Assembly: GCF_026262575.1 (NCBI RefSeq)
Contig: NZ_JAPKFL010000001.1
Location: forward strand, 124,001-188,000
DNA: 64,000 nucleotides
Source of the DNA: Streptomyces marinisediminis
Lineage (GTDB): Bacteria; Actinomycetota; Actinomycetes; Streptomycetales; Streptomycetaceae
Reading direction: 5' to 3'
Position numbers and translations under genes: made by a program. Shown piece after piece: positions 25,293 through 31,319 of this stretch; the stretch's first letter is position 1; every line of letters begins with the position of its first letter. The notes beneath the pieces were generated by a model. The model had not been told where the DNA came from, did not search any database, and was given only the letters and a program-made list of their open reading frames with translations.

Positions 25293-25638
25293 CGCCGGAA
25301 CACCCCCGGGGGCCGCGGCGCGGGCGCGGGCGCCGCGGGACGGGAAGGCGAGGAACCGGCCGTGCGGACGGAACCGAGCCGCCGCCCCCCGCGCGCCACC
25401 ACGAGCAGCGCGACCCCCGGCACCCAGCGCACCGGCGGAGGCAGGCGAAGGCCGACGCGCCCCCCCCCGTGGACCGCGCGCCACACGCCCACGAGACGCC
25501 GCGCCGCCCCGCCCCGCCCCGTCAGCCCGTCCGCGTGTTCGGGAACCCGGAAGCCCCGCGCCACCGTGTAGACAAACAACTGCCGACCGGTGCCGACCGG
25601 CGCCGAAGGCGCCGCGCCTGGGGGAGAGGAGTCGAGCC
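25293..25638. other. Gap between the glpD-like gene and the toxin gene
   Basis: 346 bp with a hairpin at 25313-25338, no credible ORF and no recognisable RNA. Base composition rises to pure GC tracts (about 25440-25470) then becomes more mixed after 25560. The last 18 bp carry the strong ribosome binding site of the toxin gene. A toxin promoter should be here, but none is clear. Confidence 0.5.
25313..25338 (+). terminator. Hairpin after the glpD-like gene
   Basis: A perfect 9-bp stem (25313-25321 with 25330-25338) and 8-nt loop lie 20 nt past the stop codon. Confidence 0.55.
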
Positions 25639-28600
25639 GTGGGGTACGTCTTACCTGATGGCGCGGACGCGATGCTGGACCTCATCGGCGTCGGCTGGCC
25701 GAACGTCGACGAGGACGACTACCGGGACATGGCGAACGACCTGCGGGACTTCGCCGAAGACGTGGAGGACGACGCGCACGCGGCGCGTTTGACGATCACA
25801 CGGCTGGTCTCCTCCGGCGACTCCGAGGCGCTCACCGCGTTGCAGGGGTACTGGGACAAGCTCGACACCCGGCACATGGCCGATCTCGCCTCGGCCGCCC
25901 GCCTCTTCGCCACCGCCCTGGACGGGGCGGCCGACGTCATCGCCGGGCGGAAGGCGGCGGCCGTGGGGGAGCTGGTCGCTCTGGCGGCCTCGATCGGGAT
26001 CGGTCTGGCCGCCGCCCCGTTCACCGCCGGTCTGTCGACCCTGTTCAGCGCCGGAGCGATCGCGGCGACGCGGGAAGTGGTTCGGCGGCTGCTGCGGGAG
26101 GCCATGGAGCTGGCCGTGGCGGAACTGGTCACGGCGCTGTCCGAACCCGCGGTGCAGGCCCTGGAGAGTATGGCCACCGAGCTGGTGGTGGAGATCGCCG
26201 CGACGGGGCTGGGCCTGCAGGACGAGATCGACGTCGGGGAGGTCGCCCAGGCCGGGCGGGACGGCTTCCAGGAGGGCGCCCAGTCGCTGAACCTGGCCTC
26301 CGCCGACGGTGCCCCACCCAGCCTCGGCCGCGCCATCGGCAAGCTGAAGATCGATGACGGCGAGCACGACACGGCCGCCACCAGCCTCACCGGGGTCAGC
26401 ACCTCCGTCAACGGGCGCACCACCGGAAAGTTGACCAACGCCCGCACCAAGCAGGGCAAGACCCGAGGCAAGGACGAACTCGCCGACGCCGTCAACGAGT
26501 TCGTCGACCGAGGGATGAGCTCTCTGGAGAAGGCGACCAAGACCGTCGGCGACCACTTCGGCGGCGCCCTGCCCCGCGGTGTGCGCAGCATCAACACCCT
26601 GCACGGAAACAACGAGCGTGACACCAAGCGCCGCTTCGACGCCTTCCGGATCGACGAGGGCCGCGACGGTGACGGGACCCGCCGAGGCACCGACCCCGCC
26701 GGTCCTCGCCCCGCCCCGCGCGCCGACCGTCCGGTACCCACCCGTCCCGACTCGCTGCGGACGGTCAAGACGGACGCGCGGACCAACGGCGTGGCACGGG
26801 AGGACTCCGCCCAGTGCGGCGATCCGATCGACATCGCCACCGGTGCGATGACGCTGACGCAAACCGACATCACGCTGCCCGGCGTGCTCACCCTCGCCCT
26901 GCACCGCACCCACATCGGCACCTACCGCTACGGGCGGCACTTCGGCCGCTCCTGGGCCTCCACCCTGGACGAGCGCCTGCACATCGACCCCGACGGCTCC
27001 GTCGTCTGGGCCCGGGAGGACGCCTCCTCACTCCTCTACCCGCGCACCCCGCAGGAAGGCGACGACCCCCTCCTGCCGGTCGAGGGCCACCGGCTGCCGC
27101 TGCGCCGCGTCACCGGCGTCCCCGGCGTCGCCTTCGCCGTCACCGATCCCCGTACCGGCATCACCCGGTCCTTCGCCGAGCCCGCCGCACCCCTCCCGCA
27201 ATCGCTCTTCGACGCCCCGGCCCTGTGCTGGCTGCTCTCCCTCACCGACGCCCACGGCAACGAGGTCGAGATCGTGCGCGACGACCGGCTAGCGCCCACG
27301 GCGGTCGTGCACTCCGGCGGCTACCACGTCGAGATCGGCACCGCGCCCCTCCACGGCGACGGCCCCCTGCGCGTGACCGGCATCGCCCTGCGCACCCCCG
27401 AGGGCGCCACCCCGGTCACGGCCTACGGCTACGACGACCACGGCGACCTCACCACAGTGACCAACTCCAGCGGTCTTCCGCTGCGTTTCACCTACGACGC
27501 CGACTCCCGCGTCACCTCCTGGACCGACCGCAACGACTCCACGTTCCGCTACGTCTACGACGCCTCCGGCCGGGTCGTGGAGACCGTCGGCCCCGACGGC
27601 TCCCTCTCGGCCACCCTCACCTACGACACCGAGGCCCGCACCACCGCGTACACCGACTCACTCGGGCACACCACGACCTACCACCTCAACCGACTCGGCC
27701 AGGTCACCACCGAGACCGATCCCGCAGGGCACACCACCCACCAGGAGTGGGACCGCTACGACCGCCTGCTGTCCCGCACCGACCCCCTCGGCCACACCAC
27801 CACCTTCACCTACGACGACGCGGGCAACCTGACGACGGTGCTGCGGGCCGACGGCACCACCTCCACCGCCGCCTACAACGCGGACAACCTCCCCGTCGAG
27901 ATCACCGCCCCCGACGGCACGGTGTGGCGCCACACCTACGACGCGCACCGCAACCGCACCTCCGTCACCGCCCCTGACGGCGCCACCACCCACTTCACCC
28001 ACGACCCCACCGGCGCCCCGACCACCGTCACCGACGCCCTAGGCCACACCCAGCACGCGGTGAACAACGCCGCGGGCCTGCCGCTGACGCTCACGGACGC
28101 CGCCGGCCACACCACCACCATCACCCGCGACGCCTTCGGCCGCCCCGCGACCGTGACCGACCCCCTGGGCGCCGCCACACGCACGGAGTGGACCGTGGAG
28201 GGCAGGCCCGCCCGCCGCATCGCTCCCGACGGCACCACCGAGACCTGGTCCTGGGACGGCGAGGGCAACTGCACCTCCCACACCGACCCCGCCGGCGGAA
28301 CGACCTCCATGGAGTACGGGCACTTCGACAAGCTGCGCGCCCGCACCGGCCCCGACGGCGCCCGCTACGAGTTCCAGTACGACACCGAGCTGCGTCTCAC
28401 CCAGGTCGTCAACCCGAACGGGCTGACGTGGGACTACGCCTACGACGCTACCGGTCGGCTCACCTCGGAGACCGACTTCGACTCCCGCACCCACACCTAC
28501 ACCTGTGACCCCGCGGGACGCCCGGCCACCCTCGTCACGCCCCTGGGCCAGCGTTACACCTACACCCACGACCGTCTCGGCCGTCTGCTCGCCCGGAACG

Positions 28601-30297
28601 TCGACGGTGTCGTCACCGAGTACGCCTACGACACCGCCGGCCGGCTCATCCGTGCCACGACCCCCACCTCCGCACTGCTACGCGAACACGACGTACGGGG
28701 TCGGTTGCTGGCCGAGAGCGTGGACGGACGCACCATCCGCTACACCTACGACCTCCTCGGCCGCCGTACGTCCCGCACCACCCCCACCGGCGCCACCACG
28801 CGCTACGACCACGGCCCGGCAGGCCATCGCACCCGCCTCGACGTGCACGGGCACCTCCTCACCTTCCAGCACGACCCCCGGGGCCGCGAACTCGCCCGCA
28901 CCTTCGGCCCCACCGACCAACCCGTCACCCTCACCACCGCCTTCGACCTCCTCGGTCGCCCCGTCGAACACACCCTTTCCTCCCCAGCCCGCGTCGTCCG
29001 CTCCCGCGGATACGACTACCGCGCCGATCACCACCTCGTCTCCACCACCGACCACCTGGCCGGTACCACCGAGCACTACACCCTCGACCCCGTCGGCCGC
29101 CCCCTGAGCGTCACCGCCGACGACTGGTCCGAGACCTACGCCTACGACCAGGCCGGCAACCAGACGCACGCGCACTGGCCCGACCAGGCCCCCCACCGCG
29201 AAGCCCGCGGCGAACGGACCTACGTCGGCACCCGCATCACCACCGCCGGAGCCGTGCGCTACGAACACGACGCCGCCGGACGCACCACCCTCCGCCAGAA
29301 GCCCCGGCCGTCCCGCAAACCCGCCACCTGGCACTACACCTGGGACGCCGAAGACCGCCTCACCACGTGCACCACTCCCGAAGGCGCCACCTGGCGCTAC
29401 ACCTACGACCCCCTCGGTCGCCGCACTGGCAAACAACGCCTCGCCCCCAGCGGTGACATCACCGAAGAGGTCCTGTTCACCTGGGACGGCTCCCGCCTGG
29501 CTGAGCAACTCGACACCACCACCAACACCGCGCTCACCTGGGAGCACGAGGGCCATCGACCGCTCACCCAGATCGAGCGTCGTCTCGAACAGGCGACCCG
29601 AGAAGAGATCGACGCCCGCTTCTTCGCCATCGTCACCGACCTCGTCGGCGCCCCCACCGAGCTTGTCGACGAAAGCGGCCACGTCCACTGGCACACCCGC
29701 GCCACCCTGTGGGGCACCACCACCTGGAACCGGGACGCCACCGCTTACACCCCGCTCCGCTTCCCCGGCCAGTACGCCGACCCCGAGACCGGCCTTCACT
29801 ACAACCACTTCCGCCATTACGATCCCGACACCGCCCGCTACACCACCCCCGACCCCCTCGGCCTCACCCCAGCCCCGAACCCCGCCACGTACGTCCACAA
29901 CCCCCACACGTGGATCGACCCCCTGGGCCTGGCACCCGAGTGCGGAGGCGACCGGGTGCCGGCCTCCCGGGTGCTGCCGAGCCGGAATGCGGCCTTCAGG
30001 TCGGCGAAGAGGGACCTTGGAATCCCGAACGGTCGGCAACCTGATGAGTTGATGATGACGTCGATGACCGACAGATCGGGGCGGCAGATTATGAATCCAG
30101 ACGGAACTCCCGTGTTGACCAGAGAGTACGTGTTCACGCGTGAAGAGGGCGATCGAGTGATCATCCAGGACCACTCGGCCGGCCACTACTATGGCGAAGG
30201 CGGCGTGGGCGATCAAGGCCCTCACCTGAATGTTCGCCCATTCGAGAACCCGAGGACCGGTAAGGTTCCTGGTACGGCCCAGCATTACGAGTACTAA
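25639..30297 (+). CDS. RHS/YD-repeat polymorphic toxin with C-terminal HNH/EndoVII nuclease
   Basis: A 1552-residue modular toxin. Residues 1-370 are a helical N-terminal domain of WXG/LXG-like character (DDYRDMANDLRDFAED onwards), with a Gly/Ala-rich hydrophobic helix near 115-150. A DUF6531-like segment starts at CGDPIDIATGAM (about 393). YD/RHS repeats fill about 600-1370. The RHS-associated core ends near DPLGL (about 1373-1433). The 115-residue tip carries SRNAAFRSAKRDLGIP, DHSAGH (1511-1516) and EGGVGDQGPH, matching the Tox-HNH-EHHH / endonuclease VII-fold nuclease toxins. No signal peptide is seen, so type VII-like export is inferred. GTG 25639 has a GGAGAGGAG site. Codon 5 is TTA. The tip has lower GC than the scaffold. 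Confidence 0.92.
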   Translation: MGYVLPDGADAMLDLIGVGWPNVDEDDYRDMANDLRDFAEDVEDDAHAARLTITRLVSSGDSEALTALQGYWDKLDTRHMADLASAARLFATALDGAADVIAGRKAAAVGELVALAASIGIGLAAAPFTAGLSTLFSAGAIAATREVVRRLLREAMELAVAELVTALSEPAVQALESMATELVVEIAATGLGLQDEIDVGEVAQAGRDGFQEGAQSLNLASADGAPPSLGRAIGKLKIDDGEHDTAATSLTGVSTSVNGRTTGKLTNARTKQGKTRGKDELADAVNEFVDRGMSSLEKATKTVGDHFGGALPRGVRSINTLHGNNERDTKRRFDAFRIDEGRDGDGTRRGTDPAGPRPAPRADRPVPTRPDSLRTVKTDARTNGVAREDSAQCGDPIDIATGAMTLTQTDITLPGVLTLALHRTHIGTYRYGRHFGRSWASTLDERLHIDPDGSVVWAREDASSLLYPRTPQEGDDPLLPVEGHRLPLRRVTGVPGVAFAVTDPRTGITRSFAEPAAPLPQSLFDAPALCWLLSLTDAHGNEVEIVRDDRLAPTAVVHSGGYHVEIGTAPLHGDGPLRVTGIALRTPEGATPVTAYGYDDHGDLTTVTNSSGLPLRFTYDADSRVTSWTDRNDSTFRYVYDASGRVVETVGPDGSLSATLTYDTEARTTAYTDSLGHTTTYHLNRLGQVTTETDPAGHTTHQEWDRYDRLLSRTDPLGHTTTFTYDDAGNLTTVLRADGTTSTAAYNADNLPVEITAPDGTVWRHTYDAHRNRTSVTAPDGATTHFTHDPTGAPTTVTDALGHTQHAVNNAAGLPLTLTDAAGHTTTITRDAFGRPATVTDPLGAATRTEWTVEGRPARRIAPDGTTETWSWDGEGNCTSHTDPAGGTTSMEYGHFDKLRARTGPDGARYEFQYDTELRLTQVVNPNGLTWDYAYDATGRLTSETDFDSRTHTYTCDPAGRPATLVTPLGQRYTYTHDRLGRLLARNVDGVVTEYAYDTAGRLIRATTPTSALLREHDVRGRLLAESVDGRTIRYTYDLLGRRTSRTTPTGATTRYDHGPAGHRTRLDVHGHLLTFQHDPRGRELARTFGPTDQPVTLTTAFDLLGRPVEHTLSSPARVVRSRGYDYRADHHLVSTTDHLAGTTEHYTLDPVGRPLSVTADDWSETYAYDQAGNQTHAHWPDQAPHREARGERTYVGTRITTAGAVRYEHDAAGRTTLRQKPRPSRKPATWHYTWDAEDRLTTCTTPEGATWRYTYDPLGRRTGKQRLAPSGDITEEVLFTWDGSRLAEQLDTTTNTALTWEHEGHRPLTQIERRLEQATREEIDARFFAIVTDLVGAPTELVDESGHVHWHTRATLWGTTTWNRDATAYTPLRFPGQYADPETGLHYNHFRHYDPDTARYTTPDPLGLTPAPNPATYVHNPHTWIDPLGLAPECGGDRVPASRVLPSRNAAFRSAKRDLGIPNGRQPDELMMTSMTDRSGRQIMNPDGTPVLTREYVFTREEGDRVIIQDHSAGHYYGEGGVGDQGPHLNVRPFENPRTGKVPGTAQHYEY

Positions 30298-30307
30298 AGG
30301 AGTTCCG

Positions 30308-30703
30308 ATGTTGGACTGGATCGCGTCTCTCAGTAATCCGCAGCCGGTACTGGCTGTCTATGGGGACACGGTGCCGACCCTGGACGAGGTGCGCATCGAG
30401 GAACTCTGCCTAAGCGTGAATGGTCCTACGCTGCGCCTTCGCTTCGATCTCGCGGAATTCCCGGCCAATCCTCCTGTGAAGTGGCGGCGCGACCGTCTGG
30501 ACGTAGTACAGGTCGAGCTCGCCTTCGGGGGCCTGCGTGCGATCTCGGTTGATGAGTTCTCCGTGGAGTCGGTCTGTGATCTGAAAATCCAGAAGGATGG
30601 ACTGGTCAGCTTTTCCAGCGAATCCGACTCGGTGAAGTTCCAGGGCACGGCGGAGACGGCGACGATCCTGCGCGTTTCTGCGTATGCGATGGGTTGCGCC
30701 TGA
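30308..30703 (+). CDS. Imm50-like immunity protein
   Basis: A 131-residue cytoplasmic protein resembling Immunity protein 50: it begins MLDWIASLSNPQPVLAVYGD, continues with a beta-rich core FDLAEFPANPPVKW, and has no signal peptide. It presumably binds and blocks the nuclease tip of the toxin encoded just upstream. The ribosome binding site AAAGGAG overlaps the toxin stop codon, so expression is coupled. The first Met with this site is at 30308; the longer upstream frame is ruled out. GC is clearly lower than in surrounding genes, consistent with joint acquisition of tip and antidote. Confidence 0.85.
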   Translation: MLDWIASLSNPQPVLAVYGDTVPTLDEVRIEELCLSVNGPTLRLRFDLAEFPANPPVKWRRDRLDVVQVELAFGGLRAISVDEFSVESVCDLKIQKDGLVSFSSESDSVKFQGTAETATILRVSAYAMGCA

Positions 30704-30811: not shown

Positions 30812-31198
30812 TCAGGCGATCCAGGCCCGGAGGCGTTCGCTGAGGACGACGTCATGCGGCAGCCGCGGGAGCTCCTGCGCGTCCACCCGTCCACCCTGGC
30901 GCCTGATGACGGCGGCCAGGGCGTTCCAGTGGCCGACCGCCGCCTGCTCGTGCGTCTCGCCGTCTCCCGGCTCGTCCGGCCCGACCACCGTCCGGGCCGT
31001 CGCCTCGACGTCCTCCGCCGTGGTCGACGCCCGGAGGTCCACCGGGCCCGAGGAGGTCCAGCCACGGTCGTCGAGCACGACCAGGCCGCGGCCGTCCGCG
31101 AGTACGGCCTCAAGCCGTGCCGACACCGACATCTGGCGAGCGTCAGAGGCAGCGCCGTCCAGATCCGTGTACGTGACCAAGCGGACCACGTCGCTCAT
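30812..31198 (-). CDS. Small hypothetical protein
   Basis: A 128-residue acidic protein starting MSDVVRLVTYTDLDGAASDA, with ADGRGLVVLDDRGWT in the middle and a hydrophobic/basic C terminus LPHDVVLSERLRAWIA. I do not recognise a family; homologues probably exist in streptomycetes. GGGGAGGG serves as ribosome binding site for ATG 31198. It lies between the immunity gene and the sdaA terminator, on the opposite strand to the toxin. It may simply be a core gene bounding the toxin insertion. Confidence 0.65.
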   Translation of the reverse strand: MSDVVRLVTYTDLDGAASDARQMSVSARLEAVLADGRGLVVLDDRGWTSSGPVDLRASTTAEDVEATARTVVGPDEPGDGETHEQAAVGHWNALAAVIRRQGGRVDAQELPRLPHDVVLSERLRAWIA

Positions 31199-31213
31199 GC
31201 CACCCTCCCCTCG

Positions 31214-31252
31214 GTCCGTCCGCGCCCGGTGGGGGCCGGCGCGGACGGACCG
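31214..31252 (-). terminator. Hairpin after sdaA
   Basis: A perfect 13-bp stem (31214-31226 with 31240-31252) and 13-nt loop lie 67 nt past the sdaA stop codon and just ahead of the small gene starting at 31198. Confidence 0.65.
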
Positions 31253-31319
31253 CCACGATGATCGCCCCCAGGCCCCACCCCACCGGCACGTCGGCACCCT
31301 CGCGTGCGGGTGGGTCGGG

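Follow-up and report, generated by a model that had tools for sequence, protein, structure and literature searches.

Introduction

As far as the accessible text of the reports goes, the closest described relatives of the locus analyzed here are RHS proteins that end in a nuclease tip of the Tox-HNH-EHHH family (PF15657). TseI of Aeromonas dhakensis joins such a tip to an RHS core and degrades plasmid DNA, an activity abolished by H1497A and by HFH-AAA; TseI cleaves itself after L1433 by way of D1407 and D1429, and TsiI protects by binding (PMC7170923). In the toxin table of the survey by Zhang et al. (2012), Tox-EHHH appears with Imm8 and Imm50, RHS repeats, the type VII secretion system (T7SS, with WXG), and Actinobacteria, whereas the toxins entered for Imm50 in the immunity table are Tox-HHH and Ntox24 (PMC3482391). 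A survey of Salmonella pathogenicity island 6 (SPI-6) describes several Rhs candidates with Tox-HNH-EHHH tips, some with Imm50 and some without (PMC10469887), and for Listeria a published report links an Rhs toxin to type VII secretion (PMC10327511). Here we examine a related gene pair, encoding an RHS polymorphic toxin and an Imm50-family protein, in a 64,000-nucleotide stretch of Streptomyces marinisediminis (assembly GCF_026262575.1, contig NZ_JAPKFL010000001.1, forward strand 124,001-188,000), hereafter the window, whose positions serve as coordinates throughout.

We consider it probable that this RHS toxin carries a DNA-cutting Tox-HNH-EHHH tip, likely neutralized by the Imm50 protein encoded downstream, and that it is exported by an ESX (type VII) system. 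Judged by its sequence, the pair is ordinary, intact, and well formed; both its toxin-antidote family and the kind of scaffold that carries it have been described before. A first-pass annotation of the same DNA had regarded the toxin-immunity combination as open, but the toxin table of Zhang et al., the Salmonella survey, and NCBI protein names already pair the two families.

Comparison of the Toxin and Its Tip with Described Systems

The toxin displays the architecture of an RHS polymorphic toxin, in which YD/RHS repeats (16 RHS_repeat stretches, 290 bits in Pfam) and an RHS-associated core precede a variable tip. All four families named in the first-pass annotation (RHS toxin, Tox-HNH-EHHH tip, Imm50 partner, and WXG-like N-terminus) were right and pass curated cut-offs. 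The layout that it proposed was likewise borne out, except that the core ends at L1431, as placed by its DPLGL motif, rather than near residue 1433, and that the tip has 121 rather than 115 residues. The coding strand of the RHS scaffold is strongly C-rich, with a GC skew of -0.28 to -0.30 per kb (27001-30000) that is the minimum of the window. A second RHS-repeat protein is encoded elsewhere in the genome (G000:C61:2667-4787, open frame of 2341 amino acids).

The window's tip matches Tox-HNH-EHHH at 81 bits against a cut-off of 25, which answers the profile check that the first-pass annotation had proposed. It contains the [ED]H motif and the two further histidines of PF15657 (D1511-H1512, H1529, and H1549) and, in addition, H1516. 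All 73 listed tip proteins, a count that includes the window's own, have these four histidines, and 69 of the 73 also have D1511; this conservation is somewhat inflated because the protein search gathers its candidates through shared words.

TseI resembles the window's toxin in its RHS core, PF15657 tip, [ED]H motif, and similar length (1545 versus 1552 residues), and in a pair of self-cleavage aspartates 22 residues apart. The sequence before the tip here reads TTPDPLGL...WIDPLGL, and because D1405 and D1427 match D1407 and D1429 of TseI in kind of motif and in spacing, cleavage after L1431 is predicted. Like the window's Imm50 gene, the TsiI gene lies directly at the toxin stop, although TsiI is not stated to be an Imm50 protein in the accessible text of that report. 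TseI differs in its export by a type VI secretion system (T6SS) with VgrG and a chaperone, in its N-terminus, and in its HFH motif, for which the window's tip likely has HLN. Taking the pattern of a weak Prescottella tip (locus L007; EH, then HFH) as a bridge between the two sequences, H1512 and H1529 are the likely counterparts of the histidines mutated in TseI.

The row of Zhang et al. shares with the window the tip family, Imm50, RHS repeats, T7SS (WXG), and Actinobacteria, and is a survey entry with no experiment in the accessible text. The Salmonella candidates have the RHS scaffold, tip family, Imm50, and two-gene unit in common with it and differ in their T6SS context and, in some cases, in a PAAR or Ntox47 domain, as far as the accessible portion of that survey shows. 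A Kribbella antibiotica RHS-HINT toxin (locus L006) has a tip ~80% and an Imm50 protein ~74% identical to those of the window; it carries a HINT domain (Pfam) and, on reading, a signal-like N-terminus, in contrast to WXG100_2 here.

A fold comparison of the tip gave no His-Me finger nuclease among the matches listed, and a sequence search for solved relatives gave none that was convincing for either tip or antidote. In an alternative reading, the tip would kill through other nucleic-acid chemistry, as an RNase for example, or would have a fold outside the His-Me finger nucleases. We consider this alternative quite unlikely and read the tip as a putative DNase.

Imm50 as the Likely Partner of the Tip

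The Imm50 match scores 49.3 bits on 30305-30700 and 48.6 bits on a longer open reading frame (ORF) from 30230, against a cut-off of 27.1, so that the second profile check proposed by the first-pass annotation also returned the expected family. The ATG of the gene sits ten bases past the toxin stop, and its ribosome-binding site AAAGGAG (30296-30302) overlaps the stop codon TAA (30295-30297), as that annotation had noticed. The closest named Imm50 relative, from Streptomyces sp. TRM70308, is 95% identical. Close relatives of the two proteins bear the NCBI names "HNH/endonuclease VII fold putative polymorphic toxin" and "Imm50 family immunity protein".

The pairing of tip and Imm50 was examined across the window's genus in 392 genomes, including the window's own. 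PF15657 matches number 51 in 46 genomes, and Imm50 matches number 104 in 59 genomes, 4 of the 104 scoring below the family cut-off. When an Imm50 match downstream on the same strand and within 300 bases is counted as a pair, 32 of the 51 tips are paired. Broken down by tip score, with class limits chosen after inspection of the list, Imm50 follows 11/11 tips of at least 80 bits (the class to which the window's tip belongs), 18/18 at 47-80 bits, and 3/22 below 47 bits. Tip and antidote distances are correlated in the window's class (Mantel r 0.84 over 10 loci of the 11 matches, reached by 0/2000 permutations) and in the next class (r 0.51 over 16 of 18 matches, 0/2000 permutations as high).

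The remaining 19 of the 22 tips below 47 bits are not followed by Imm50. Imm8 was considered as their partner and set aside, the single Imm8 match in the 392 genomes occurring in a genome without a listed tip.

A scan of genome contigs yielded just two loci. In Kribbella (L006), Imm50 lies directly downstream of the tip, showing that the pair is present outside the genus. In Prescottella (L007), a weak tip (28.4 bits) is followed by another ORF and then by Imm50. Plasmids carry distant relatives only, with the tip in three records (39.5-44%) and Imm50 in two (29.9%). Two of the three plasmid tips, on two near-alike Streptomyces plasmids, each precede two Imm50 genes; behind the third, from Tenacibaculum, the next gene is annotated as hypothetical.

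A Candidate Type VII Export Route

The N-terminus of the toxin carries a domain of the WXG100 type, as found in substrates of type VII (ESX) systems, and at an E value of 0.001 the toxin gene is the sole PF25547 match in the genome. The genome holds two ESX sets. One, at C1:359-374 kb, comprises EccE, EccB, two WXG100 proteins, a FtsK/SpoIIIE-type ATPase that is presumably EccC, and EccD; the other, at C98:27-38 kb, comprises a FtsK/SpoIIIE-type ATPase, EccD, EccB, and EccE. Further ESX-type matches occur on C88 (two WXG100 proteins) and C13 (EccE, weak). Many relatives that combine the window's tip with a PF21725 N-terminus are named "putative T7SS-secreted protein" by NCBI.

The first-pass annotation had noted neither a signal peptide nor a linked secretion gene. 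The former fits our analysis, in which the ten most hydrophobic 19-residue windows of the toxin all start at residues 105-114 (no dedicated predictor was used). The latter holds for the surrounding ORFs, among which no ESX gene lies beside the toxin, whereas the genome elsewhere carries the two ESX loci. Because the set at C1, though it shares a contig with the toxin, is ~205 kb away, we do not class the toxin as an ESX-linked effector. From the WXG100-like domain and the two ESX sets, T7SS is the leading candidate route.

The same toxin and antidote could instead rely on another export route or on lysis, an alternative that departs from ESX export in this step alone and whose probability is not exclusive of it. 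It draws on the lack of an adjoining ESX gene and on the occurrence of the tip class on the RHS-HINT protein of Kribbella L006, with its signal-like N-terminus, and, more distantly, on a PAAR chassis; because the class rides such chassis too, the tip itself does not fix the export route. Weighing against this alternative are the WXG100_2 N-terminus, which scores above its cut-off and has no hydrophobic N-terminal stretch, the presence of EccB, EccD, EccE, and an EccC-type ATPase in both ESX sets, and the T7SS names of the relatives with PF21725. Overall, we judge export independent of ESX to be unlikely.

In the sequence of events that we favor, the WXG100-like N-terminus would direct the toxin through an ESX exporter encoded elsewhere in the genome, while the RHS repeats would enclose the tip in a shell. 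The core would cleave itself behind L1431, the counterpart of L1433 in TseI, and the tip would degrade DNA in a neighboring cell. In the producer cell, Imm50 would bind the tip.

Probable Exchange of the Tip-and-Antidote Cassette

We compared the scaffold and the tip separately across relatives. The N-terminal 390 residues were found in at least 43 of 100 genomes, the window's own included, in most of which only 19 candidates were scored. Among the best 20 relatives apart from the window's own, N-terminal identity is 34-67%; the RHS core also aligns in 13 (47-66%), and the other seven are short proteins without a core. The tips of these 20 relatives fall into nine groups (E 1e-5 over 60 residues), and the sole match to the window's tip is that of L116, at 37% identity, the other 19 being unrelated.

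Conversely, the window's tip class rides on several N-termini. These include WXG100_2 (L123), T7SS_signal (L125 and L127), and, with no Pfam match, N-termini that resemble Sec signals on reading (L128 and L130), in a scan that set aside four members of the class that are short or have no usable start (L124, L126, L129, and L131). The protein search also placed the tip behind HINT and, more distantly, PAAR domains.

Base composition changes along the locus as well. The G+C content at third codon positions (GC3) drops from 0.918 in the scaffold to 0.727 in the tip (counted from residue 1433) and is likewise low, at 0.735, in the antidote. None of 132 segments of 115 codons in the scaffold reaches a GC3 as low as 0.735 (lowest 0.826), and neither do any of 682 such segments in 23 other genes (lowest 0.904). 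The control genes are 22 of the 37 other picked ORFs plus one added by hand; this control leans high because the genes were picked partly by high GC3, and the scaffold control is unaffected. The low GC3 and the mixed tips are most naturally explained by the exchange of a tip-and-antidote cassette.

A toxin of this kind may plausibly be a contact-dependent weapon against other streptomycetes, as the first-pass annotation suggested. One could also imagine that the pair serves kin discrimination or development inside the colony rather than attack on other species. Tips differ between relatives, as this would lead one to expect, and RHS proteins can act between siblings in other bacteria. We nevertheless see only a slim chance that such a role applies here, and retain the plausible reading of a weapon against other streptomycetes.

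Imm50 Doublets in Related Loci

Unexpectedly, and outside the window itself, tips scoring 47-80 bits are usually followed by two Imm50 genes. Two Pfam matches lie downstream in 15 of the 18 cases, with one second match (G271) under the cut-off, and after refinement of the profile on these same loci, all 18 show doublets. Across all Imm50 matches, 41 of 63 clusters count as doublets, at least one of which (G091) is a single broken gene.

We built an Imm50 tree from 60 fetched loci (30 of the 51 tip rows and 30 of the 104 Imm50 rows), of which 58 contain Imm50; with duplicates removed, it holds 72 sequences in all, including three named homologues. The tree separates first, second, and solo genes. 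Nearest neighbors, taken from other loci, share the class of the gene in question for 25/28 first, 26/28 second, and 14/15 solo genes, and the gene of the window belongs to the solo class. The order within doublets is fixed, a longer first gene preceding a shorter second gene, and the two form separate clades. Two loci depart from this pattern: L016 has a doublet made up of two solo-type genes, and in L054 a solo, a first, and a second gene follow one another. Distances among first genes correlate with those among second genes (r 0.75 over 26 loci, 0/2000 permutations), as would be anticipated for co-inherited genes.

Further examples of doublet loci are L023-L040, L043, L061, L062, L067, and L069-L072, some of them without a recognizable toxin upstream. 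The upstream frame was read in 16 loci; 11 of these have no listed tip, and inspection by eye, with no family search made, revealed the window's tip in none of the 11.

For Tde5 of Pseudomonas aeruginosa, immunity through two unlike proteins is known, according to the accessible text of the report (PMC13392607). A literature search, with subscription literature mostly outside its reach, found no paper that tests the window's pair or describes Imm50 doublets. A possible explanation of the three classes would be that Imm50 exists as a solo form guarding tips like that of the window and as an ordered two-protein antidote blocking a related tip at two surfaces. We offer this idea tentatively and regard it as doubtful.

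Features and Flanking Genes

The features of the locus are compiled in Table 1. A scan for promoters and terminators gave nothing usable above shuffled sequences.

Table 1. Features of the toxin-antidote locus, in window coordinates
Feature	Position	Strand	Basis
Purine-rich ribosome-binding site of the toxin gene	~25624-25631	+	sequence
RHS polymorphic toxin gene	25639-30297	+	single open frame, GTG start, 1552 amino acids
WXG100_2 (PF25547), residues 18-145, likely type VII export signal	25690-26073	+	Pfam 32.8 bits, cut-off 27
DUF6531 (PF20148), residues 394-465	26818-27033	+	Pfam 68.4 bits
RHS-associated core (Rhs_assc_core, TIGR03696), residues 1357-1431	29707-29931	+	NCBIfam 78.4 bits, cut-off 32.5
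Predicted self-cleavage motif, residues 1405-1431, with D1405 and D1427 and a putative cut site after L1431	29851-29931	+	motif positions, TseI-like spacing
Toxin tip, residues 1432-1552 (121 amino acids)	29932-30294	+	Pfam match and 73 listed tip-bearing proteins
Tox-HNH-EHHH (PF15657), residues 1483-1552; D1511-H1512, H1516, H1529, H1549	30085-30294	+	Pfam 81 bits, cut-off 25
Ribosome-binding site AAAGGAG, overlapping the toxin stop TAA (30295-30297)	30296-30302	+	sequence
Imm50-family gene (PF15594), 131 amino acids, ATG at 30308, likely antidote	30308-30703	+	Pfam, 17 homologues, pairing

Upstream, the pair is flanked by what we take to be a glycerol-3-phosphate dehydrogenase gene, and downstream by genes presumably encoding a serine dehydratase and a serine hydroxymethyltransferase. 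An ORF of 161 amino acids downstream of Imm50 (30812-31297, minus strand) has no Pfam or NCBIfam match above cut-off.

Several other origins and roles were considered and rejected. A link to a mobile element through an ARAGORN call of tRNA-Thr (CGT) at 25358-25434 was dropped, as Rfam has no family there at gathering score, and the call is probably spurious. Neither tip nor antidote has a phage match that would speak for a phage origin; in PHROGs, the toxin matches one RHS-like family of unknown function and the antidote none. A plasmid origin was set aside, with distant protein relatives only and no nucleotide match, and so was a role in anti-phage defense, for which PADLOC gave no match.

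Implications

The locus adds one clean, intact Tox-HNH-EHHH/Imm50 pair on an RHS scaffold of the type VII kind. The pair would also bear on whether actinobacterial ESX systems export RHS toxins. Its use is otherwise comparative: together with the ordered doublets beside related tips of the genus, it would let one test directly why one antidote serves some nuclease tips and two are kept by others. If the proposal of three Imm50 forms is true, immunity to a single nuclease family is conferred by one protein in the window's pair and by two proteins in the doublet loci.
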